A DNA stretch of 64,000 bases from positions 1 to 64,000 of the forward strand of contig NZ_BAEI01000004.1 of NCBI RefSeq assembly GCF_000241325.1. The letters are read 5' to 3'. Both the position numbers and the translations under genes were made by a program. The stretch is from Gordonia polyisoprenivorans NBRC 16320 = JCM 10675 (GTDB lineage: Bacteria > Actinomycetota > Actinomycetes > Mycobacteriales > Mycobacteriaceae). Of this stretch, positions 5,380 through 64,000 are shown one piece after another. Each line of letters starts with the position of its first letter. Positions within the stretch are counted from its first letter, which is position 1. The notes under the pieces were generated by a model, which was not told the origin of the DNA, ran no database searches, and was given only the letters and a program-made list of their open reading frames with translations.

Positions 5380-6336
5380 ATGAAAGCAGCTCTCGTCACC
5401 GACCTCACCCGCCCACCGATGTATGCCGACCTCGACGCTCCCGTCGCCACCGACGGGTACGTCGAGGTGCAGATGCTCGCCGCCGGGGTGCATCAGATCG
5501 TGCGCTCCATCGCAGGCGGAGCGCACTACTCCTCGGGAGACGAACTCCCCTTCGTCGTCGGCGTCGACGGGGTGGCCGTACTCGACGGGCATCGCGTCTA
5601 CACCGGCGGATGCCCCGACCCATACGGCACCATCGCCGAACGCACAGTGGTGCCCGCGGGATTCGCGGTGCCGATCCCCGATGCGCTATCGAGCGAGACC
5701 GCCGCCGCCGTGGTCAACCCCGCAATGTCGTCATGGATGCCGCTGGTGAAATCCGGTGTCCCTCAAGGAGGCACCGTCGCAGTTCTCGGAGCGACCGGCA
5801 CCGCCGGTACTCTCGCCGTCCGGATCGCCCTGCACCTGGGCGCCGGTCGCGTCGTCGCGGTCGGCCGCAACGCCGCGGTGCTGGCCCGTCTCGCCGAAGA
5901 CCCGCGGGTGCAGACGGTGTCGCTACTCGACGACGATCCCCGAGGGCGACTGGCGGCGGCGTTTGCCGAGGGGATCGACGTGATCCTCGATTACCTCTGG
6001 GGTCCGGTCGCCGAGATGACCCTGGAAGCCCTACGGGCGCACAGCCTCACCGGACGCCACTCCAGCGTGGACTACGTCCAGATCGGCGCACTGGCCGGCC
6101 GGTCGATCACCCTCGACGCCGCCATCCTGCGCGCGCGTCCGATCTCGATCTGGGGCTCGGGTGGTGGATCGATCGACCCGCGTCTGTTATTCGCCGAACT
6201 CCCCGCCCTGCTCGATCTCGCCGCCGCCGGTGGGCTCCCGATCGATGTCCGCACCGCGGCGCTCGCCGACGTCGAGCAGGCGTGGAACTCCCCCGAGCCC
6301 GGCCGGCTGGTCGTGACGATCGGGACTAGAGGGTGA
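5380..6336 (+). CDS. Zinc-independent MDR oxidoreductase (quinone-reductase-like)
   Basis: A medium-chain dehydrogenase/reductase of 318 residues, predicted to use NADPH to reduce a quinone or enone. The nucleotide-binding motif is VAVLGATGTAGTLAVRIA, around residue 132-149. The catalytic zinc ligands of alcohol dehydrogenases are not evident, which fits the quinone oxidoreductase group. Start ATG 5380 follows AAAGGAG. It is the divergent target of the TetR regulator at 4660-5301. The stop runs 11 bases past the stop of the convergent Nudix gene. The real substrate is probably related to the regulator's inducer. Confidence 0.78.
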   Translation: MKAALVTDLTRPPMYADLDAPVATDGYVEVQMLAAGVHQIVRSIAGGAHYSSGDELPFVVGVDGVAVLDGHRVYTGGCPDPYGTIAERTVVPAGFAVPIPDALSSETAAAVVNPAMSSWMPLVKSGVPQGGTVAVLGATGTAGTLAVRIALHLGAGRVVAVGRNAAVLARLAEDPRVQTVSLLDDDPRGRLAAAFAEGIDVILDYLWGPVAEMTLEALRAHSLTGRHSSVDYVQIGALAGRSITLDAAILRARPISIWGSGGGSIDPRLLFAELPALLDLAAAGGLPIDVRTAALADVEQAWNSPEPGRLVVTIGTRG

Positions 6337-39294: not shown

Positions 39295-39579
39295 GCCGAG
39301 CGAGAAATCTTCTTAATACCACTGGCCGAGGAAAACCGGAGTCGCGACACGTGGGGAAGATGATTCGTCAGGAATCTCACATCGCCTGCGCGGCCGGACG
39401 TCCGGGTTGCGACCTCAGCCGCACCCGGACACCGACCCGTACGGTCTACCGGAAGCGCGGGCGCGGCGCCACCCGGGTCGGTGTCGGTCGCGCGCGTCGG
39501 TCGTCGGTTCTGGTTCACCCGCTTGTCGTGGGGTCACCAGAGTCGGGCCGCTGCCGTCGGGTCACTACAGTGGAGCGCT

Positions 39580-40644
39580 GTGAAGGTGACCGTTCTCGTC
39601 GGTGGCGTCGGTGGCGCTCGATTCCTGCAGGGTGTCCGCGAATTGTTCGGGCCGACGCCGTTTCCCGCGCCCGCCGAGGACTCGGCGGGCGACGAGTCGG
39701 CAACTCCCCCTGGCCCCCATGAGATCACTGCGATCGTCAACGTCGGTGACGATGCGTGGATGCACGGGGTACGGATCTGCCCCGACCTCGACACCTGCAT
39801 GTACACCCTCGGCGGTGGCATCGACACCGAGCGCGGGTGGGGGCGCAGGGGTGAAACCTGGCACGCCAAGGAGGAACTCGCCGCCTACGGCGCCGATCCG
39901 GACTGGTTCGGGCTCGGCGATCGCGACCTCGCCACCCATCTCATCCGCACCCAGATGCTCGACGCGGGCTACCGGCTCTCCGACGTCACCGCCGCACTGT
40001 GCAAACGCTGGCAGCCCGGTGTGCGGCTGTTACCGGCCACCGACGACCGCCACGAGACCCACGTCGTGGTGTCCGCTCCGGGCGGCGAGGACGGCGCCCA
40101 GGTGGCGATCCACTTCCAGGAGTGGTGGGTTCGGCACCGGGCCAAGATCCCGACATTCGGTTTCGCCCAGGTCGGTTCGGACGACACGCACGCCGCTGCA
40201 GGGGTGATCGAGGCGATCGCCGACGCCGACGTCGTCCTGCTGGCCCCCAGCAACCCGGTGGTGAGCATCGGCGCGGTGATCAGCGTGCCGGGCGTACGCA
40301 GCGCGTTGCGCACCACCGGGGCACGCGTCGTCGGCGTGAGTCCCGTCATCGACAACCGGCCCCTGCGCGGCATGGCCGACGAGTGTCTGTCGGTGATCGG
40401 GGTCGAGACCACCGCCGAGGCGATCGCGGCACACTACGGCGCGCGCAGCGGCAACGGGCTCCTCGACGGGTGGCTCATCGCCGACGGCGACGAGGCCGCG
40501 GTCGAGGGCATCTCCATCGGCGCCGCTCCCCTGCTGATGACCGACCCGATCGCCACCGCGCACATGGTGCGCGCGGCGTGTGCTCTGGTCGGCGTCGACA
40601 CCCCGGAGATCGCCGGACCGGACTCCACCGGAGCTGATCGATGA
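39580..40644 (+). CDS. fbiA: 2-phospho-L-lactate/PEP transferase FbiA (F420)
   Basis: The CofD-family enzyme, about 354 residues, that joins Fo to the GDP- or GTP-activated three-carbon phosphate, making (dehydro)F420-0. Family motifs are the N-terminal [41 protein letters not shown], and [15 protein letters not shown] 39580 is supported by GGAG four bases upstream and TACAGT at -14 to -9. fbiB follows with an ATGA overlap. The divergent whiB2 and this order match Rv3260c-Rv3262. A loop at about residues 23-45 is longer than usual ([13 protein letters not shown]). Confidence 0.95.
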
Positions 40645-42008
40645 CCACGGGCGACGGCGCATCTCCGATCACCGATCACCGCGCCCCTGGCATCATCGAG
40701 GTGCGCCCGGTGATCGGGTTGCCGGAATTCGACACGACCACCGACCTCACCAGCGAGATCCTCACGGCCGCACCGTGGTTGGCGTCCGGCGACGTGCTGG
40801 TGGTGACCAGCAAGGTCTTCTCCAAGACCGAGGGCCGCATGGTGCCCGCCCCCACCGACCCCGACGAACGCGACGCCCTGCGCCGACGCCTCGTCGTGCA
40901 GGAATCGGTGCGGGTACTCGCGCGCCGCAACCGCACACTGATCACCGAGAACCGACTCGGCCTCGTGCAGGCCGCCTCCGGCATCGACGGGTCGAATGTT
41001 CCGGTCGACGCGCTCGCGCTGTTGCCGGAGAACCCTGACCGCAGCGCCGCCGAACTCCGCGCGTCCCTCGCCGCGGCCGCGGGCATCGATGTGGCGGTGA
41101 TCGTCACCGACACGATGGGCCGCGCGTGGCGGACCGGCCAGATCGACGTGGCGATCGGAGCGGCGGGGATCGCGGTCACCCATCCCTACGAGGGTGGCGT
41201 CGACAGCCACGGAAACCCGTTGGTGGTCACCGACATCGCCGTCGCCGACGAGATCGCGGCCGCGGCCGATCTGGTGAAGGGCAAACTCGCGGGCGTACCG
41301 GTGGCCGTGGTGCGTGGATTGCAGCCCACCGACGACGGGTCACGGGCGGCCGATCTGATCCGGCCCACCGACGAGGACCTGTTCCACCTCGGTACCGCCG
41401 AGGCGATCGAGCAGGGCCGCCGGGAGGCACTGCTGACGCGGCGGTCCGTGCGCGCCTTCGCCGACACCCCGGTCGACCCGGAATCGATCACCGCGGCATG
41501 CGCAGACGCGCTCACCGCACCCGCTCCGCACCACACCCACCCGGTGCGATTCGTGTGGGTCCGCGACGCCGCGCGCCGAACGCGACTGCTCGATGCGATG
41601 GGCGAGGCCTGGCGCGCCGATCTCGGCGCCGACGAGAAGACCGCCGAGTCGATCGAGAAGCGCGTCGCGCGCGGGCGCATCCTCTACGACGCCCCGGAAC
41701 TGGTGATCCCGTTTCTGGTCCCCGACGGCGCCCACACCTATCCCGACGAGCGTCGCAACGCCGCCGAGCACACCATGTTCACCGTCGCCGCAGGTGGCGC
41801 CGTCACCGCCTTGCTCGTCGCCCTCTCGGTACGCGGACTCGGCTCCTGCTGGGTCGGTTCGACCATCTTCGCCGCGCCCGTGGTGACCTCCCACCTCGAG
41901 GTCCCCGCGGACTGGGAACCGTTGGGCGCCATCGCCATCGGCCACCCGGCACAGGAGTCCGGGCTGCGCGGGAGCGCGCCCACCGACGACTGGCTGATCG
42001 TCCGGTGA
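40641..42008 (+). CDS. fbiB: Coenzyme F420:L-glutamate ligase FbiB (CofE-nitroreductase fusion)
   Basis: A bifunctional protein of 455 residues. The CofE domain (to about residue 250) adds glutamates to F420-0; visible motifs are [30 protein letters not shown] and GVDSHGNPL. The C-terminal FMN nitroreductase-like domain ([25 protein letters not shown]) reduces dehydro-F420-0 and aids chain extension. It overlaps fbiA (ATGA) and the Nudix gene (GTGA). This is the full actinobacterial fusion form. Confidence 0.95.
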
Positions 42009-56177: not shown

Positions 56178-56905
56178 GCGCCGCCGGTCCACGCCGTCGG
56201 CGGCGCGCCGGTGAGTTCGGCGAAGTCGCGGCACATGTGCGCGTGGTCGGCGTACCCGGCGCGCGCAGCGATACCGCTGAGATCCTCCCCGGCGTCGTCG
56301 AGTAGCGCCAGCGCAGTCCGCATCCGCAGGATCCGGGCGAGCGTCTTGGGGCCATACCCGAAGTGCTGCAACGACATCCGATGCAGGGTGCGCGCCGATA
56401 CCGACACCGTGTCGGCGCATGCGGAGACCGGGACACCGCGTGCAAGCATCAAGGGCAACGTCGGCACCCACGGCGGGGGTGATTGACCGGGCGTGGCGTC
56501 GCACAGCGCGGACAGCGCGGCCCCGACGTCGTCGGCGGCCGCGAGCGTGTCCTCCCAGCGTCGCACGTCCGACGACGGCCAGAGATCGCTCAGCGGCACC
56601 CGCGAATCCCGGAACTCCGACGCGGGGGCGCCGAGGAGTCCGGGCGCGTACCCGGGCGCGAAGCGCAGTCCGGTCATGTCCCGGCGCCGGTCGGTGCCGA
56701 AGACATACGGCCCGGTGTCGGGGCCCGCGATCAGGAGCTCCTCGCCGGTCCAGATCAGGTCCATGCATCCGTCGGGCAGGATGACCGACTCGCCGGGAGC
56801 GGTGTCGGCGCGCCAGCACGTCGCCGGTCTCGCAGAGCGCTCGGCCAATGTCACCTGCGGTCGCGGCTCAGGCCAGTCGTTGTACCGCGGTGGCGATGCG
56901 CTCAT
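56159..56905 (-). CDS. AraC family transcriptional regulator
   Basis: A 248-residue regulator with a C-terminal AraC HTH pair: GVPVSACADTVSVSARTLHRM and GEDLSGIAARAGYADHAHM. The N-terminal part (ILPDGCMDLIWTGEELLIAGP) is the DUF6597-type sensor found in many actinobacterial members. ATG 56905 lies within the 3' end of dapC (38-base overlap) and has a weak ribosome binding site. Its targets are unknown; the convergent VOC gene is a candidate. Confidence 0.8.
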   Translation of the reverse strand: MSASPPRYNDWPEPRPQVTLAERSARPATCWRADTAPGESVILPDGCMDLIWTGEELLIAGPDTGPYVFGTDRRRDMTGLRFAPGYAPGLLGAPASEFRDSRVPLSDLWPSSDVRRWEDTLAAADDVGAALSALCDATPGQSPPPWVPTLPLMLARGVPVSACADTVSVSARTLHRMSLQHFGYGPKTLARILRMRTALALLDDAGEDLSGIAARAGYADHAHMCRDFAELTGAPPTAWTGGAQTSGL

Positions 56906-57983
56906 CGGTCGCCGTCAGCGCGATCCGCACGTGGTCGACGCCCGCGGGTCCGTAGAAGTCCCCTGGCGCGGGAAGGATGCCGCGCTGCGCAAGCCAGCCG
57001 ACGGTCTCCCGGCACGGTTCGCCGCGGGTGGCCCACAGATACAAACCGGCTTCGGAGTGGTCGATGGTGAAACCGGCTGCGCGGACCGCCGCGGCCAGCT
57101 CGGTCCGGCGTTTGGCATAGCGGGCACGCTGGACCTCGACGTGCGCATCGTCGGTGAGCGCTGCGGTCATCGCCGCCTGAATCGGGTACGGCACCATCAG
57201 CCCGGCATGTTTGCGTACGGCCAGCAGTTCGGCGATCAGTTCCCGGTCACCGGCGAAGAAACCCGCACGATAGGACGCCAGGTTGGAGATCTTCGACAAC
57301 GAGTGCACCGCGAGCAGCCCGGTGTGATCGCCGTCGGAGACACGCGGGTCGAGCACCGAGACGGCCTCGGCGTCCCACGACAAACCGAGATAGCACTCAT
57401 CGGAGATGACGACGGTCCCGCGTTCGCGCGCCCACTCGATCACCTTGCGCAGGTGGTCGATCCCGAGGATTTTGCCGGTCGGGTTGGACGGCGAGTTCAG
57501 GAACAGCACGGCCGGGCGCGCCGGCCCGAGCGCCACCGTCGAATCGGCACGCACCGGTGTCGCACCGGCCAGCAGGGCACTGACCTCATAGGTCGGGTAG
57601 GCGACCTCCGGGATGACGACCATCTCGCCGACGCCGACACCGAGCGTCGCGACCACCCCGGCGATGGCCTCCTTGGTTCCGATCACCGGGAGGATGCTCG
57701 ACTCGTCCACGCCGACGGCGCCGTAGCGACGACCCAGCGCCGCGGCTGCGGCGTCGCGCAGAGCCGTGGTCCCGATCGTCGTCGGATAGCCCGGGAACTC
57801 CGAGGCCTGTGCGAGGGCCTCACGGATGACCGGATCGACGGGATCGACCGGGGTGCCGACCGAGAGGTCGACGATGCCATCGGGATGAGAGTTCGCGGTG
57901 GCCTTGGCCTCGGCCAGGGTGTCCCACGGAAAGTCGGGAAGGGCGGCACTGACCCGGCGTCGGGCCGGACGGTCACCGGTCAC
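56868..57983 (-). CDS. dapC: Succinyldiaminopimelate transaminase (DapC, actinobacterial type)
   Basis: A fold-type I PLP aminotransferase of 371 residues. The PLP lysine is in AVHSLSKISNLASYRAGFF, and the cofactor-binding NSPSNPTGKI and SDECYLGLSWD segments are present. It matches the actinobacterial DapC type that follows fdxC (Rv1178 after Rv1177), making N-succinyl-LL-diaminopimelate. GTG 57983 begins 7 bases after the fdxC stop, so the two are cotranscribed. Confidence 0.88.
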   Translation of the reverse strand: MTGDRPARRRVSAALPDFPWDTLAEAKATANSHPDGIVDLSVGTPVDPVDPVIREALAQASEFPGYPTTIGTTALRDAAAAALGRRYGAVGVDESSILPVIGTKEAIAGVVATLGVGVGEMVVIPEVAYPTYEVSALLAGATPVRADSTVALGPARPAVLFLNSPSNPTGKILGIDHLRKVIEWARERGTVVISDECYLGLSWDAEAVSVLDPRVSDGDHTGLLAVHSLSKISNLASYRAGFFAGDRELIAELLAVRKHAGLMVPYPIQAAMTAALTDDAHVEVQRARYAKRRTELAAAVRAAGFTIDHSEAGLYLWATRGEPCRETVGWLAQRGILPAPGDFYGPAGVDHVRIALTATDERIATAVQRLA

Positions 57984-57990
57984 CGCGAGC

Positions 57991-58320
57991 TCAGTCCTCG
58001 TCCTCGTTCATCGGGGGCAGCTGCTTGATGAAGGGCGGGTCGAAATCGGTCTTACCGACCTTGCTGGCACCGCCCGGCGAGCCCAGCTCGTCGAAGAAGT
58101 CGGCATTGGCACTGACGTACGGATCCCATTCGTCGGGGACGTCATCCTCGTAGAAGATCGCCTCCACCGGACACACCGGCTCGCAGGCACCACAGTCCAC
58201 ACATTCATCCGGCTGGATGTAGAGACTGCGACCACCTTCGTAGATGCAATCGACCGGGCATTCCTCCACGCATGCCTTGTCCATCACATCCACGCAGGGT
58301 TCCGCGATGATGTAGGTCAC
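57991..58320 (-). CDS. fdxC: Seven-iron ferredoxin FdxC
   Basis: A 109-residue ferredoxin of the actinobacterial 7Fe type, with CVEECPVDC and CVDCGACEPVCPVEAI cluster motifs. The C-terminal ~40 residues (DPYVSANADFFDELG) are the family's acidic tail. It is the Rv1177 counterpart and probably feeds electrons to redox enzymes. The start is GTG 58320 after AAAGGAG. It is followed by dapC. Confidence 0.94.
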   Translation of the reverse strand: MTYIIAEPCVDVMDKACVEECPVDCIYEGGRSLYIQPDECVDCGACEPVCPVEAIFYEDDVPDEWDPYVSANADFFDELGSPGGASKVGKTDFDPPFIKQLPPMNEDED

Positions 58321-58547
58321 CACACACTCCTTTGCTGCAAGCACTTCGGTCGGCCGCCGTCGCGCGGCGGGCCGAGATGTACGCGAGGGCTGGTCGCGCC
58401 GAGCACGCATGCAGCGGCAATCCGCAGCTCTGAAAGACCGCACACACGTGTTGCCCTAGAGTATCTGCCCACCGGGCGGCCCTCCCACACCCGCCCCTGC
58501 TCACCGACGGTCGTTGAGTCACAGATCACACCGGGTCCCGGTTGCGC

Positions 58548-59703: not shown

Positions 59704-59716
59704 ATCGCCGACCCCG

Positions 59717-60133
59717 ATGACCCCGACCGAATTCATCGCCTTCATTCGCTCCCACCCGCTCGGGGTCGTCGCGACCGTCTCGCCGGACGGAGCACCCGAG
59801 GCGGCGCTCGTCGGGATTGCCGTCACCGACGCCGCGGAGATCGTCTTCGACACCTCACGGTCATCCCGCAAGTTCGCCAATCTCGCGGCCGATTCCCGGG
59901 TCGCCCTCGTGGTCGGCACCACCGAGGAAATCACCGTGCAATGTGAGGGGCGGGCGGACATTCCGCACGGCGAGGCTGCGCAGCGATGCCGGGACGCGTA
60001 CTTCGCGCAGTATCCGGACGGACGGCAGCGGGCGGCCGATCCCGACATCGTGCACGTGCGCGTCCGACCGCAATGGGTACGCTGCGCCGACTATCGGCCG
60101 GACGGCGGCGGGGTCACCGAGAGACACTGGTGA
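59717..60133 (+). CDS. Pyridoxamine-phosphate-oxidase-like (flavin/split-barrel) protein
   Basis: A 138-residue split beta-barrel protein of the PNPOx-like family. The N terminus (FIAFIRSHPLGVVATVSPDG) and the DTSRSSRKFANLAADSRVALVVG segment are typical. The cofactor could be FMN, F420 or haem; no residue decides. ATG 59717 has a weak ribosome binding site and begins 13 bases after the rhodanese stop. It ends at the tandem-repeat region before cofG. Confidence 0.75.
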   Translation: MTPTEFIAFIRSHPLGVVATVSPDGAPEAALVGIAVTDAAEIVFDTSRSSRKFANLAADSRVALVVGTTEEITVQCEGRADIPHGEAAQRCRDAYFAQYPDGRQRAADPDIVHVRVRPQWVRCADYRPDGGGVTERHW

Positions 60134-60151: not shown

Positions 60152-60280
60152 TCGGCAGCCAGACCGCTCACGCCACCGCCGACCACGCCCGGGGTGACGG
60201 AATCCGGTCGGCAGCCAGACCGCTCACGCCACCGACGACCACGCCCGGGGTGACGGAATCCGGTCGGCAGCCAGACCGCT
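60152..60280. repeat. 56-bp tandem repeat at the 3' end of cofG
   Basis: Unit starts at 60152, 60208 and 60264; two full 56-base copies differing by one base and 17 bases of a third. The last copies encode the C terminus of the CofG-like protein ([15 protein letters not shown]) on the minus strand. Confidence 0.9.
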
Positions 60281-61468
60281 GTGCGGATCGCTCAGGGCCA
60301 CCACGTGCTCGTGCAGTGCCGGGTCGATCCAGGACGACGCGTCGAGGATGTACGGCGGCTGCGCGGTGAGACGTTCGGTCAGGGTGAACCCGGCGCCGGC
60401 GGTGAGATCGGCGAGCACGTCGAGGTTGGGCCAGGGACGTTCGGGATTGACGTGATCGGGCGTCAGCGGTGACACCCCACCCCAGTCGTCGACGCCGGAG
60501 GCGATGAGTGCCTCGCACTCGGCCGCCGACACGAGGTTCGGCGGCGCCTGGATACGCATGTGCGGACCGAGCACGATCCGCGCGGTCGCGACCGCGGCGA
60601 GGAACTCGGTCATCTCCGCGTCCGGGGTACCACGCATCGCGGTGTCCGGCTTGGCCCGGAAGTTTTGCACGATCACTTCCTGGATGTGCCCGCCGGCCGC
60701 GGCGATCTCGGCCATCGCAAGCAACGATTGCGCTCTCTCGGTGAGACTTTCACCGATGCCGACGAGGATTCCGGTGGTGAACGGAATCCCGAGGGCACCC
60801 GCATCACGCAACACCTGCAGCCGTACCAGGGGATCCTTGTCGGGGCTGCCGTAATGAGGCATGCCCTTCTCGGTGAACAGTCGGCGCGAGGTGGTCTCGA
60901 GCATCATGCCCATCGACGGCGCGACCGGGCGAAGGGCGGTCATCTCCTCGGCGCTCATCACACCCGGATTCAGGTGCGGCAACAGTCCTGTTTGTGACAG
61001 GACCGCGATGGCGGCGGCGCGGACGTAATCCAGCGTGGAGGTGTAACCACGCTCGGACAGCCATTGCGCGGCCTGCGGCCACCGATCCTCCGGGCGGTCA
61101 CCGAGAGTGAACAACGCTTCCTTGCAACCGAGTTCGGCACCCCTGCGTGCGATGTCGACGACCTCGTCGAGTTCGAGGTACATGCCCGCACCGGCGCGGG
61201 CGAGCTTCCCCGGGATCGTCACGAAGGTGCAGTAGTGGCATCGGTCGCGGCACAATTTGGTCAGCGGGATGAACACCTTGCGCGAGTAGGTGACCTGCCC
61301 GGATCGTCCGACGGCCGCAAGGCCCTCGTCGCGGAGATCGGCGGCGATCCGTTGCAGCGCATGCAGATCGGCGCCGGACGCCGACAACAGGGTGCTCACC
61401 ACCTCGACGTCGGTGATCTCGGTGGTCGTCGCGGCATCGAGTGCCGCGGCCATGCTCATGGACGGCAT
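60224..61468 (-). CDS. cofG: CofG-like radical SAM enzyme (Fo synthase subunit 1)
   Basis: A radical SAM protein of 414 residues corresponding to the N-terminal (CofG) half of FbiC. The cluster motif is intact: [20 protein letters not shown] (CxxxCxxC). Further CofG segments are [47 protein letters not shown] and [17 protein letters not shown]. In M. tuberculosis the halves form one FbiC protein; here it ends at the natural CofG/CofH junction, right at a 56-base tandem repeat. ATG 61468 follows GAGGGGAG. The gene is last after the CofH-like and monooxygenase genes (6-base gap). Normally CofG closes the deazaflavin ring together with CofH. Confidence 0.85.
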
Positions 61469-61474
61469 GGGTGC

Positions 61475-62980
61475 TCACTCCCCTCGTTCGCTGGTGGTGG
61501 CCACTGTCGATCGGGTGACGAACGGCTCCGGCTCGAACGTGCCGTTGCGCTCTCGGAACGACAACGCCGTACCCGGCCAGAGCAGTGTCAGCCGACCACT
61601 CTCGGGATCGACATACCAACTGTCACAACCGGTCAACCACACCGTATCGGAACTCCGGTCGTCGATCTCCCGGGTGTACGCGGCCTCGGCGTCCGCGGTG
61701 ACCTCCAGTGCGGCAACCCCCGCCTCGGCCATGTGATCGAGGGCGCCGACGACATAATCGAGTTGCGTCTCGATCATGTAGATCGCCGAATTGTGGCCGA
61801 GCGCCGCATTCGGGCCGTCGAGCACGAACATGTTCGGGAACCCGGCGACCACGGTCGAGGCATAGGAGATCATGCCGTGCCGCCAGTGGTCGGCGAGCAA
61901 CTCGCCGTCCCGGCCGTGCACGCGCGTGGCGACCGGCGGTCGTGCCGCCTCGAAACCCGTTGCCATCACCAGGATGTCGAGTTCGTGACTGCGACCGCTG
62001 GACGCGCGCGCCTTGGCTTCGACGACCGATTCGAGCGCCCCCGGCTCGAAGACGACGTTCTCACGCAACAGCGTCGGATAGAAATCGTCACTGAGAAGTA
62101 TTCGCTTACAACCGATCTCGTAGTCCGGGGTGAGTTCGGCACGCAGCACCGGATCGGGGATCTGCGCGCGCAGGTGGGTCAATGCCCGCGCCCGGATCTC
62201 GTCGATGTCGGGACGGCGGCGCAGACGTTGCGCGAACGCGGCGTCGGCGTTGCGCAACAGTTCGTTTCGATGTGCGGCCGCCCGCTGCGGATCGACGAGC
62301 TCGGCACGCTCGGCGGGATCGAGCTGACGATCCTCCCGCGGCACGATGTAGGGCGGGGTGCGGCTGAAGATGACGAGCTCGGCGGCGCGGGCGGCCACAT
62401 GCGGCACGATCTGGATCGCCGACGCCCCGGTACCGACCACCCCGACCCGGGCGCCCGCCAGATCGAGGTCGGGCTCCCAGGCGGCCGTGTGGACCACGGC
62501 CCCCGGAAAGTCGTCGAGGCCTTCGATGTCGGGGATTCTCGGCTCCGACAACCGGCCCACGGCCAGCAGCAGGATCCGGGCGGTCAGCGACTGCGCACCG
62601 TCAACGCCCTCGGTGACCAGATGCCAGCGAGCTCCCTCGGCATCCCATGTCGCACAAGTGAGTTCGCGGCCGAGTCGGATGTGGTCGGTGAGCCCTTCGT
62701 CGAATACGAGCCGGTCGAGATAGGCGCGGATCTCGGCGCCGGCGGGATAGACCGCCGACCAGTCGGCGGGGGGACGGAACGAGAACGAATAGAGGTGACC
62801 GGGGATGTCGCAGGCGATGCCGGGATAGATGTTGTCTCGCCAGGTGCCGCCGACCGCGTCGGCGCGTTCGAGGACCACGAACGATTCCCTCGCGCGCCGC
62901 GCCAGATGCGTGGCCATCCCCAGCCCGGCGAAACCCGCCCCGACGATCGCGACGTCGACCTGGGGTGCGGCCGCGGTCAC
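61475..62980 (-). CDS. Baeyer-Villiger-type FAD/NADPH monooxygenase
   Basis: A flavin monooxygenase of 501 residues. FAD motif VAIVGAGFAGLGMATHL at the N terminus, NADPH motif GVVGTGASAIQIVPHVA near residue 190. Between them is FPGAVVHTAAWEP, close to the Baeyer-Villiger fingerprint FxGxxxHxxxW(P/D). Further family segments are GGTWRDNIYPGIACD and MFVLDGPNAALGHNS. The substrate (ketone or other) is unknown. GTG 62980 overlaps the CofH-like stop (GTGA), and cofG begins 6 bases after its stop, so all three form one operon. Confidence 0.87.
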   Translation of the reverse strand: MTAAAPQVDVAIVGAGFAGLGMATHLARRARESFVVLERADAVGGTWRDNIYPGIACDIPGHLYSFSFRPPADWSAVYPAGAEIRAYLDRLVFDEGLTDHIRLGRELTCATWDAEGARWHLVTEGVDGAQSLTARILLLAVGRLSEPRIPDIEGLDDFPGAVVHTAAWEPDLDLAGARVGVVGTGASAIQIVPHVAARAAELVIFSRTPPYIVPREDRQLDPAERAELVDPQRAAAHRNELLRNADAAFAQRLRRRPDIDEIRARALTHLRAQIPDPVLRAELTPDYEIGCKRILLSDDFYPTLLRENVVFEPGALESVVEAKARASSGRSHELDILVMATGFEAARPPVATRVHGRDGELLADHWRHGMISYASTVVAGFPNMFVLDGPNAALGHNSAIYMIETQLDYVVGALDHMAEAGVAALEVTADAEAAYTREIDDRSSDTVWLTGCDSWYVDPESGRLTLLWPGTALSFRERNGTFEPEPFVTRSTVATTSERGE

Positions 62981-64000
62981 CGGCCTGCCCGGTGCAGGAT
63001 CGGCCGGTCGCCGGGCTGCCGATAAGCGGTGGTCCGCTGAACCGGCGTTCGGCCGGCGCGCTCGGCGAATCCGGCGAGGCGCTCGGAGTCGAGGACCCGA
63101 CCGGCCTCCGGTCCGGCCGACGGCATCATCGCGCCGTCGAGGAGCATCCCGCCGATGTCGTCGACCCCGCCCCGCAGCACCTCGTCGACGACGTCGGCGT
63201 CGAGCTTGGTCCAGGCGACCTGGATGTGGTCGAACCGACCCAGGGTGACCAGCCGCGTGACGGCGTGGATCGCCCGCGTCTCGCGGCGTGAAGCGCCCGC
63301 CACCGCGACCGACCGCAGATGAGGTGGGGTGTTGTCGGCAACCATCGGCATCAGGATGAGCTCACTGAACCCGCCTGTACGCGACTGGATCCCGCACAGG
63401 GTCCGCAGATGGGCGAGGACGTGGCCCGGCGTTTCGACATGCCCGTACAACACCGTCGCCGTCGAAAACAGTCCCGCCTCGTGCGCTGCGGAGATGACCT
63501 CGATCCACCCGTCCCGGGTGTACTCGGTCCCGGGCGGTGCGAGAACCGCACGAACCTCGTCGTCGAGGATCTGCGCCGCGGTCCCCGGCACCGAACCGAG
63601 TCCGGCGCCGCGTGCGCGGCGCAGGAACTCCTCGACGTCGATGCCCAGCCGGGCGGCGGCGACGCGGATCTCCGGTGGGCGGAACGCGTGCAGATGGACC
63701 GGCGCCGCGGCGGTGATCCGCTCGATCAGGCGCAGGTACCCCTCGGCCGAGGCATCGGCGGGCAGTGGCCCCTGCATGCAGATCTCGGTCGCCCCGAGCC
63801 CGTGGGCCTCGACGACCAGATCCTCCAGCGACGGGTCGGTGGTCAGGCTCGCGGCCACCGCGGTGTCGAGATTGCGATTCACCACGTAGGTGAGGGCCTC
63901 GGGGTCGGTGACCGCACGGCGGGCCGCGTCGGCGTGCGCGCACAGCTCGTCGAGGAGATCGCCGTCGGCGCCGAGCAGCGCGATCCACTCGTCGTCGGAG
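62977..64000 (-). CDS. CofH-like protein lacking the radical SAM cluster motif (5' end outside window)
   Basis: Homologous to the C-terminal (CofH) half of FbiC. Conserved blocks: ATEICMQG, IPGTAA-like VPGTAAQILDDEVRAVL, LYGHVETPGHVLAHL, SRTGGFSEL, HIQVAWTKLD, DDIGGMLLDG. The linker before it, SDDEWIALLGADGD, is also FbiC-like and runs off the window at 64000. In CofH the VVNRNIN strand is followed by the CxxxCxxC cluster motif. Here VVNRNLDTAVAASLTTDPSL goes straight to the next helix, about 17 residues shorter and without any of the three cysteines. The frame is open throughout, so it is not a frameshift. It is probably inactive as a radical SAM enzyme or has a new role. It overlaps the monooxygenase by four bases. 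Confidence 0.8.
   Translation of the reverse strand, partial: SDDEWIALLGADGDLLDELCAHADAARRAVTDPEALTYVVNRNLDTAVAASLTTDPSLEDLVVEAHGLGATEICMQGPLPADASAEGYLRLIERITAAAPVHLHAFRPPEIRVAAARLGIDVEEFLRRARGAGLGSVPGTAAQILDDEVRAVLAPPGTEYTRDGWIEVISAAHEAGLFSTATVLYGHVETPGHVLAHLRTLCGIQSRTGGFSELILMPMVADNTPPHLRSVAVAGASRRETRAIHAVTRLVTLGRFDHIQVAWTKLDADVVDEVLRGGVDDIGGMLLDGAMMPSAGPEAGRVLDSERLAGFAERAGRTPVQRTTAYRQPGDRPILHRAGR

Follow-up and report, generated by a model that had tools for sequence, protein, structure and literature searches.

A CofH relative without a radical SAM site, tied to a Baeyer-Villiger monooxygenase at the fbiC locus of Gordonia: a probable replacement for the CofH step of F420 synthesis

How could a bacterium make Fo, and hence F420, with a CofH-like protein that has no radical SAM site? 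The question is raised by an operon at one end of the window, by which we mean the whole stretch of 64,000 nucleotides analysed here (contig NZ_BAEI01000004.1 of Gordonia polyisoprenivorans NBRC 16320 = JCM 10675). A 2021 review states that every F420 producer studied makes Fo in one universal way, by means of two radical SAM domains (PMC8498797).

The operon and its three proteins

The original prediction described three coupled minus-strand genes with a flavin monooxygenase gene in the middle, and this is the layout found (Table 1), the monooxygenase being a type I Baeyer-Villiger monooxygenase (BVMO). The first gene, referred to as cofH', shares 4 bases (GTGA) with the BVMO gene, and cofG starts 6 bases after the latter. 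The start of cofH' lies outside the window, with the first 35 codons past its end (L001:978-2105, minus strand), as does the opposite flank of the operon, formed by mshB and typA. The F420 genes fbiA and fbiB had been called intact, which their scores over the TIGR01819 and PRK13294.1 cut-offs bear out. An aminotransferase near the operon, considered as a possible tyrosine aminotransferase, is DapC, which flanks fused fbiC too. A search with a defence-system library gave no match.

Table 1. Positions of the operon and its F420-related context in the window (contig coordinates where stated).
Feature	Position	Strand	Remarks
cofH' (CofH relative without CxxxCxxC)	62977..64000 in window; contig 62977-64104	-	375 aa in all
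Type I Baeyer-Villiger monooxygenase (BVMO) gene	61475..62980	-	501 aa
cofG, radical SAM 7,8-didemethyl-8-hydroxy-5-deazariboflavin synthase half	60224..61468	-	414 aa; TIGR03550
CRDRCHYC, CofG radical SAM motif	61229..61252	-	read from sequence
Junction without the cluster loop of canonical CofH	63830..63870, approximate	-	alignment, 62 CofH' and 77 canonical rows
fbiA (CofD), F420 pathway context	39481..40644	+	TIGR01819 387.7 bits, over cut-off, at 39586-40581
fbiB, F420 pathway context	40641..42008	+	PRK13294.1 698 bits, cut-off 304
dapC and fdxA, flank of ancestral fbiC locus	56868..58443	-	same flanks around fused fbiC in other Gordonia

By sequence, CofH' is a CofH relative that lacks the radical SAM site; it derives from FbiC by rearrangement and is linked to the BVMO. 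It is about 40-46% identical to CofH, the C-terminal half of FbiC (5-amino-6-(D-ribitylamino)uracil--L-tyrosine 4-hydroxyphenyl transferase), and the CofH body and FbiC linker originally attributed to it are there as a homologous barrel and a linker kept in part. Its AlphaFold model (pLDDT 89) has the barrel of CofH and MqnE, and the closest solved fold is that of the aminofutalosine synthase MqnE (6XI9), which, unlike CofH', belongs to the radical SAM enzymes and serves menaquinone synthesis. Matches of the N-terminal 70 residues to WD-40 and related PDB entries were taken as spurious. Of 187 columns conserved in CofH, 77 stay fixed in CofH', including VNRN, GATE.C.QG (GATEICMQG), HxHA, PGTAA, YGH and others. 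Differences from CofH include the GGI after CMQ, which has mostly become GP, the stretch TLMEETISRM, which has become about LLDGxxxP, and a score below the TIGR03551 cut-off (277.5 against 374.1 bits, profile positions 74-344).

The most conspicuous difference concerns the cluster site. No CxxxCxxC is found anywhere in the full 375-aa protein, N-terminus beyond the window included. An in-frame skip of this region had been predicted, and the gap falls where it had been placed: directly after VVNRNLDT, the loop that runs in canonical CofH from about FTNVCYTGCRFCAFAQR to DADA is absent, making CofH' about 17-20 residues shorter there. In an alignment of all fetched rows, cysteine columns 2 and 3 are gaps in 62/62 CofH' rows and cysteine in 77/77 canonical ones; the rows were sorted by motif, and sorting by BVMO neighbour gives the same split. 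The full-length protein rules out cluster cysteines in the missing upstream part. A sequencing error at the junction is likewise ruled out, because all 36 BVMO-adjacent cofH' genes of Gordonia are without the motif while the 23 other genomes have both motifs, in 23/23 cases in a fused FbiC.

CofG scores 453.8 bits against TIGR03550 (cut-off 213.35), and its CxxxCxxC motif is intact as predicted and kept in 36/36 Gordonia carriers. The step originally thought lost was deazaflavin closure. According to the parts of the review that concern these enzymes, CofH forms the carbon-carbon bond and ring closure is the work of CofG (PMC8498797), so it is the CofH radical step that is lost and not ring closure. 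With 321.4 bits for CofH' and 658.7 for CofG, both proteins stay below the cut-off of the FbiC fusion model NF006687 (1018); the halves of FbiC are here encoded separately and in the opposite order, on either side of the BVMO gene.

Type I BVMOs are marked by an FxGxxxHxxxW-type fingerprint and by [AG]GxWxxxx[FY]P[GM]xxxD. Both motifs are present in the BVMO, with E after W168 where the fingerprint has P or D. In its alignment (26 homologues), GGTWRDNxYPGxxxD, FxGxxxHxxxW and GCKR are invariant, as are, residue by residue, F158, G160, H164, W168 and G44-G45-W47-Y52-P53-G54-D58. The best 50 matches listed in a fold search are all BVMOs (TM about 0.8, best matches about 30% identical), and the closest solved relatives, among the matches listed, are TmCHMO, steroid monooxygenase and phenylacetone monooxygenase. 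GCKR lines up with AKR in TmCHMO and with GAKR in steroid monooxygenase, and we take its arginine to be the equivalent of Arg337 of phenylacetone monooxygenase. The protein thus resembles type I BVMOs (phenylacetone, cyclohexanone, steroid monooxygenases) in fold, BVMO motifs and arginine motif; it differs from them in adjoining cofH' at all loci examined and in a conserved C-terminal TLLWP region peculiar to cofH'-linked BVMOs.

Distribution and evolution of the cassette

The same three-gene order, suggested as something to look for in related genomes, turned up in 36 of 59 Gordonia genomes, as cofH'-bvmo-cofG on one strand; in the other 23 FbiC is fused and carries both motifs, and the locus has no BVMO. 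Whole-genome searches with the CofH' query found no FbiC in the 36 carriers and did find it in the 23 others; one carrier (G053) gave one further weak match (1.7e-4). A normal fbiC had been expected elsewhere in the genome of G. polyisoprenivorans, but a CofH model search (E up to 0.001) hits nothing there besides cofH' and portions of cofG. Of the proposed rearranged FbiC paralogue the rearrangement stands, and the paralogue beside a normal fbiC does not. The locus is flanked by mshB on one side in 59/59 Gordonia genomes and by fdxA and dapC on the other in 55/59; judged by gene order, the operon sits at the ancestral fbiC locus. The F420 pathway is otherwise kept, since FbiA (59/59), FGD1 (59/59) and CofC (58/59) are over cut-off, the sole genome without such a CofC being of the fused-FbiC type; F420H2 reductases are found in 59/59.

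Outside Gordonia, cofH' was also found in Williamsia, Nocardia, Rhodococcus, Pseudonocardia and two MAGs. Among the named non-Gordonia carriers, 6/11 have CofG only; a set of 12 family genomes, which shares 4 with the named carriers, contains 8 of the CofG-only kind and 4 in which the ORF is fused and its CofH half eroded. FbiA is present in 19/19 non-Gordonia carriers tested. Nocardia miyunensis has an FbiC deletion scar, and a search for CofH-half remnants beside CofG-only genes (8 loci) gave a clear one in this species only, the other matches being mostly CofG's own radical SAM domain. One MAG has a fused clusterless FbiC that scores over the FbiC cut-off though its second motif is absent. 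Both systems occur together in three Nocardia (intact FbiC with cofH' and BVMO) and in one MAG (divergent FbiC with cofH' and BVMO). A class-wide search of 394 genomes (E up to 1e-72) gave five matches: the genome itself, another Gordonia carrier and three further sequences, 43-46% identical and in frames of 871-886 aa, which by frame length and identity, motifs aside, we take as canonical FbiC.

A third recurrent partner gene, for example a tyrosine aminotransferase, was ruled out, since no further gene family besides cofG recurs in more than 3 of the 11 non-Gordonia loci. A sigma-factor-like protein is encoded in three of them (L107, L108, L130), and cofG in L111 and L116.

A tree of 61 sampled rows groups CofH' in one clade (100/100 support), which implies a single change and tells against independent origins of the motif loss; its inner placements are unsure, as long branches come together and the bootstrap values were not yet stable. 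The BVMO gene lies directly downstream of cofH' in 36/36, 26/26 and 12/12 loci (sets that contain repeats), and distances among CofH' proteins correlate with those among the BVMOs (r 0.87; 0/5000 permutations as high). Values of dN/dS for cofH', the BVMO gene and cofG range from 0.03 to 0.30, those of CofH' exceeding BVMO and CofG in most pairs tested. In the fused ORFs with an eroded CofH half, that half gives 0.16-0.35 and the CofG half 0.04-0.08; the former, being below 1 and overlapping the cofH' range, is relaxed relative to CofG and not neutral. Independent FbiC losses are few (4-5 independent pairs, too few for a sign test to reach 0.05), the FbiC rows of named records being counted as cassette-free without a whole-genome search.

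A probable route to Fo and its alternatives

With no FbiC, the other F420 genes kept and the ancestral fbiC locus occupied, the operon looks like an fbiC replacement and not a side branch. Replacement is supported further by the genomes from which FbiC's CofH half has disappeared: there the cassette is present, and CofG is retained along with whichever other F420 genes were tested. On this genomic pattern, CofH' and the BVMO probably replace, in an O2-dependent manner, the radical SAM reaction of CofH in Fo, hence F420, synthesis. Gene complementarity also supports our inference that CofH' would make the 4-hydroxybenzyl adduct of ribityldiaminouracil.

The BVMO, with NADPH and O2, would insert an oxygen beside the carbonyl group of a ketone or aldehyde derived from tyrosine. 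By comparison with the action of phenylacetone monooxygenase on phenylacetone, the most plausible substrate is 4-hydroxyphenylpyruvate. The resulting 4-hydroxybenzyl ester could then shed its carboxylate (oxalate, if derived from 4-hydroxyphenylpyruvate) and give p-quinone methide. CofH', with the CofH barrel kept and the cluster, and presumably SAM, gone, would hold 5-amino-6-(D-ribitylamino)uracil, whose C5 would capture the quinone methide to form the same 5-(4-hydroxybenzyl) adduct as the CofH product; CofG would complete Fo as usual. An O2-dependent deazaflavin route whose first step dispenses with radical SAM chemistry, by BVMO-released p-quinone methide and polar capture on CofH', is quite possible, at rather less than even chances, and the exact sequence starting from 4-hydroxyphenylpyruvate is a shade more tentative.

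Replacement would also hold if the BVMO did all the new chemistry and CofH' were a substrate carrier or scaffold passing the adduct to CofG, a sub-case whose odds overlap with those of replacement at large. CofH' retains no redox centre and has the elevated dN/dS just described, both of which fit a scaffold; the 77 fixed CofH columns are rather what a working pocket would lead one to expect, and a mere scaffolding role seems unlikely.

The original prediction saw a paralogue recruited to other chemistry, with CofH' and the BVMO making another tyrosine- or flavin-derived product; Fo would then need some other source. The CofH step might also be done by an unrelated enzyme that escaped detection, or Fo be taken up from neighbours. 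The BVMO family is broad, and where the cassette coexists with FbiC, in the three Nocardia and the one MAG, it might do something else. Such recruitment is improbable given strict complementarity with FbiC across 59 Gordonia genomes, an occupied fbiC locus, the CofG motif and F420 genes kept in carriers, and the want of any further gene, cofG apart, that recurs in more than 3 of the 11 loci outside Gordonia.

That cassette strains scavenge Fo made by others, the operon being a decaying FbiC remnant, would agree with the diffusion of Fo across membranes mentioned in the review (PMC8498797), but is very improbable for three genes under purifying selection, with cofH' open in carriers (the single apparent frame break is in the BVMO of G056) and a derived single CofH' clade with its own conserved residues in several genera. 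Equally far-fetched is a BVMO that acts after Fo formation to give a modified deazaflavin, a hidden enzyme doing the CofH step: its substrate is one that we only infer, but the CofH model found no such enzyme in the genome, and ordinary FbiA, FbiB, CofC and FGD1 suggest ordinary F420.

Known parallels and implications

Replacement of CofH by CofH' and the BVMO would have a parallel in ThiO and ThiH of thiamine synthesis. There, too, an O2-using flavoenzyme does duty for a tyrosine lyase of the radical SAM kind whose fold is related: aerobes have an O2-dependent glycine oxidase, anaerobes ThiH (PMC9046217). The parallel is incomplete, glycine being the substrate of ThiO, while here a clusterless homologue is kept as partner. 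To our knowledge, ThiO works without any clusterless relative of the enzyme it replaces. The portions of the CofH, FbiC and F420 literature covered, a scope outside which bioRxiv and most subscription journals fall, gave no description of a cofH' and BVMO system, nor did those on F420 report Fo or F420 production by cassette strains.

Automatic annotation may mislabel these proteins, CofH' falling under the CofH cut-off and the clusterless fused FbiC of a MAG over that for FbiC. There is also biotechnological relevance, as oxygen sensitivity of Fo synthase is a suspected limit on Fo titres in the part of PMC11917521 that treats them. The operon predicts an exception to the universal Fo mechanism, in 36 of the 59 Gordonia examined and some members of other genera. 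If this is true, a radical enzyme would have kept its fold and product while its mechanism changed from radical to polar, and the resulting non-radical CofH' would have reached several genera of actinobacteria and taken over from FbiC's CofH half.

An operon with a clusterless CofH and a Baeyer-Villiger monooxygenase

At the right end of the window, the CofH relative without the CxxxCxxC radical SAM motif (CofH') is encoded upstream of a flavin monooxygenase and CofG. The cofH' and monooxygenase genes overlap by four bases (GTGA), and 6 bases separate the latter from cofG. CofH' matched positions 74–344 of the CofH model TIGR03551 (NCBIfam) with 277.5 bits, below the cut-off of 374.1; CofG scored 453.8 bits against its NCBIfam model (cut-off 213.35). 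The first 35 codons of cofH' lie beyond the window edge, and no cluster cysteines were found among them.

Features of the operon at the right end of the window
Feature	Position	Strand	Remarks
cofH'	64104-62977 of contig	minus	375 aa; first of three genes
BVMO gene	62980-61475	minus	501-aa flavin monooxygenase
cofG	61468-60224	minus	414 aa
CRDRCHYC motif of CofG	61252-61229	minus	sequence

A 56-bp direct repeat (window 60152–60280, 2.3 copies, 98% match) covers the cofG stop and encodes the last residues of CofG. Convergent to cofG on the plus strand (window 59705–60133) is a gene for a PPOX-class protein like the F420-dependent Rv1155 family TIGR03618 (75.1 bits, slightly below the cut-off of 79.05).

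The monooxygenase is, as predicted from sequence and modelled fold, a type I Baeyer-Villiger monooxygenase (BVMO). The nearest solved sequences are TmCHMO, steroid monooxygenase and phenylacetone monooxygenase, and a fold search with the model (pLDDT 83) returned BVMOs in all of the best 50 rows. BVMO motifs were invariant, one fingerprint residue excepted, across 26 aligned homologues of 27 intended (Rhodococcus sp. HNM0569 was omitted, its range having overrun its own stop); in the window protein the residue following the last W of the fingerprint is neither P nor D. Also invariant in these 26 is GCKR, aligned to the KR of TmCHMO and steroid monooxygenase; we take its arginine to be catalytic, equivalent to Arg337 of phenylacetone monooxygenase.

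One chromosomal locus, two arrangements in Gordonia

The original prediction took this operon for a rearranged paralogue of FbiC, the fused CofG-CofH Fo synthase, and expected a normal fbiC elsewhere in the genome. No second CofH was found: a TIGR03551 search of the genome (estimated completeness 100%) returned only cofH' and two weak cofG stretches. A genus-wide search gave a CofH' match (61–100% identity) in 36 of 59 Gordonia genomes and an FbiC-type match only (42–46%) in the other 23, and the locus was retrieved from all 59. The observation as first described is confirmed and strengthened: all 36 carriers have cofH', BVMO and cofG in this order on a single strand, with CxxxCxxC absent from cofH' and present in cofG. 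Relatives' ordinary FbiC does not share the loss; in each of the remaining 23 loci a single fused frame carries both motifs, and the fetched stretch gave no BVMO match. In one carrier (L044, genome G056) the BVMO alignment is split between two frames at about 5899–5902, apparently by a frame break.

Both types share their chromosomal place, with mshB on one side in 59/59 loci (typA in 56) and fdxA plus dapC on the opposite flank in 55/59. Among the four exceptions, L042 and L088 stop at a contig end and L044 sits near the edge of its retrieved segment; for L048 (G021) fdxA and dapC were not found in the retrieved segment, though it was long enough. In Gordonia the CofH'-BVMO pair occupies the fbiC locus itself.

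Spread of the pair and fate of the old CofH half

Among the best 80 loci in a scan of named records, there were 26 in which a BVMO immediately follows CofH' (15 Gordonia, 3 Williamsia, 4 Nocardia, Rhodococcus sp. HNM0569, Pseudonocardia kujensis, a Microbacteriaceae MAG and an Actinomycetes MAG); the remaining 54 had the CofH motif, one with a weak BVMO match (37%). In a family-wide draw of 401 genomes, CofH' was found (E up to 1e-78) in 47. Twelve of these are not Gordonia, and all 12 have an adjoining BVMO; four of the 12 duplicate named genomes (identical coordinates). Two records (L162 and L120), under the titles Candidatus Melainabacteria and Bacillus sp. AZ43 (unverified), also hold an FbiC of actinobacterial look; these contigs are perhaps misassigned.

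CofH' was monophyletic (support 100/100) with one change, among 61 rows that included 24 of the 62 CofH' rows, the bootstrap being not settled and some branches long. CofH' and BVMO distances correlated (r 0.87 over 26 loci, 0.90 over 11; neither value was reached in any of 5000 permutations), and no further gene recurred in more than three of the 11 non-Gordonia loci, cofG in two loci aside. The dN/dS values were 0.08–0.30 for cofH' and 0.04–0.12 for BVMO (10 pairs each), and 0.03–0.10 for cofG (9 pairs).

The FbiC model was searched over the whole genomes of the 11 non-Gordonia named carriers. In six (W. soli, W. sp. 1135, W. sterculiae, Rhodococcus sp. HNM0569, P. kujensis and N. miyunensis), CofG and CofH' are present and canonical CofH is missing. 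The sole form in the Microbacteriaceae MAG Lab288P1bin103 (L116/L209) is an 827-aa frame that still joins CofG to the clusterless CofH; lacking the second motif, it nevertheless passes the FbiC equivalog cut-off (1029.8 vs 1018), and automatic annotation might label it a complete Fo synthase. Three (N. aurantiaca, N. sp. alder85J, N. transvalensis) retain a complete FbiC, and the Actinomycetes MAG LSA5.bin8 (L210, G068) a very divergent one of 782 aa (motifs CRDRCGYC and CTYKCRFC), located elsewhere in the MAG than the pair.

None of the 12 family genomes outside Gordonia had FbiC above cut-off: eight have CofG-only frames and four (Williamsia-group, L221–L224) an 829-aa fused frame whose CofH half is open, with CEPGCRYC kept and NRN gone; the one sequence viewed at full length also lacks CMQGG and the stretch PGTAAEILDD. 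This eroded half (dN/dS 0.16–0.35, six pairs) is relaxed compared with the CofG half (0.04–0.08) without being neutral. The CofG of N. miyunensis has a leftover of the FbiC linker as its C-terminus, and a piece resembling the final part of the Nocardia CofH half follows shortly after it in a different frame, so that the CofH half of this FbiC was most likely removed by deletion.

In a quick tree (64 of 125 rows), the N. miyunensis CofG clusters with that of Nocardia FbiC, and the CofG of P. kujensis joins a Thermomonospora FbiC; the cassette changed state 4 times and canonical CofH was lost 5 times. Over 4–5 independent pairs, with named FbiC rows assumed cassette-free without a search, cassette and CofH loss went in the same direction in 3.4–3.5 on average and never in opposite ones, too few to reach 0.05. 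The simplest account is that the pair arose once and moved between genera, after which the CofH half of FbiC decayed repeatedly.

A possible radical-free replacement for CofH

CofH attaches a tyrosine-derived 4-hydroxybenzyl radical to ribityldiaminouracil, and CofG then cyclises the product (PMC8498797, PMC8210684); the former paper, a 2021 review, terms the two-radical-SAM mechanism universal. We found no description of the present system in literature titles and abstract openings, a coverage outside which lie preprints and most subscription journals. The chemistry we propose is our own inference. Attack of the nucleophilic uracil C5 on a p-quinone methide would give the same adduct without radicals. 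A BVMO is a plausible quinone-methide source: it could oxidise a 4-hydroxybenzyl ketone to the 4-hydroxybenzyl ester, whose elimination the para-hydroxyl group would drive. Were 4-hydroxyphenylpyruvate the substrate, oxalate would be the by-product. Such a polar route would be SAM-free, suiting a partner that has kept the CofH barrel and lost the cluster, and electron-balanced, O2 taking the role SAM has in CofH. A related swap is seen in the supply of dehydroglycine, by an oxygen-dependent glycine oxidase in aerobes and the radical SAM tyrosine lyase ThiH in anaerobes (PMC9046217).

It is possible that Fo is instead taken up from outside or made via an unknown enzyme. Four carriers retain both the pair and FbiC, and outside Gordonia the association of cassette with CofH loss comes from few independent events; both points weigh against the proposed replacement. 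FbiA exceeds its cut-off in 19/19 non-Gordonia carriers examined, and FbiB, surveyed in the window, is intact. All 59 Gordonia genomes have FbiA and FGD1 above cut-off and 3 to 15 F420H2_quin_red matches each, and 58 have CofC (the exception, G035, has a fused FbiC). With these genes retained, the 36 Gordonia carriers seem, from their gene content, equipped to make and use F420, yet without the known enzyme type for the CofH step. We read CofH' and the BVMO as a probable functional substitute for CofH, a reading that supplants that of a side-branch paralogue.
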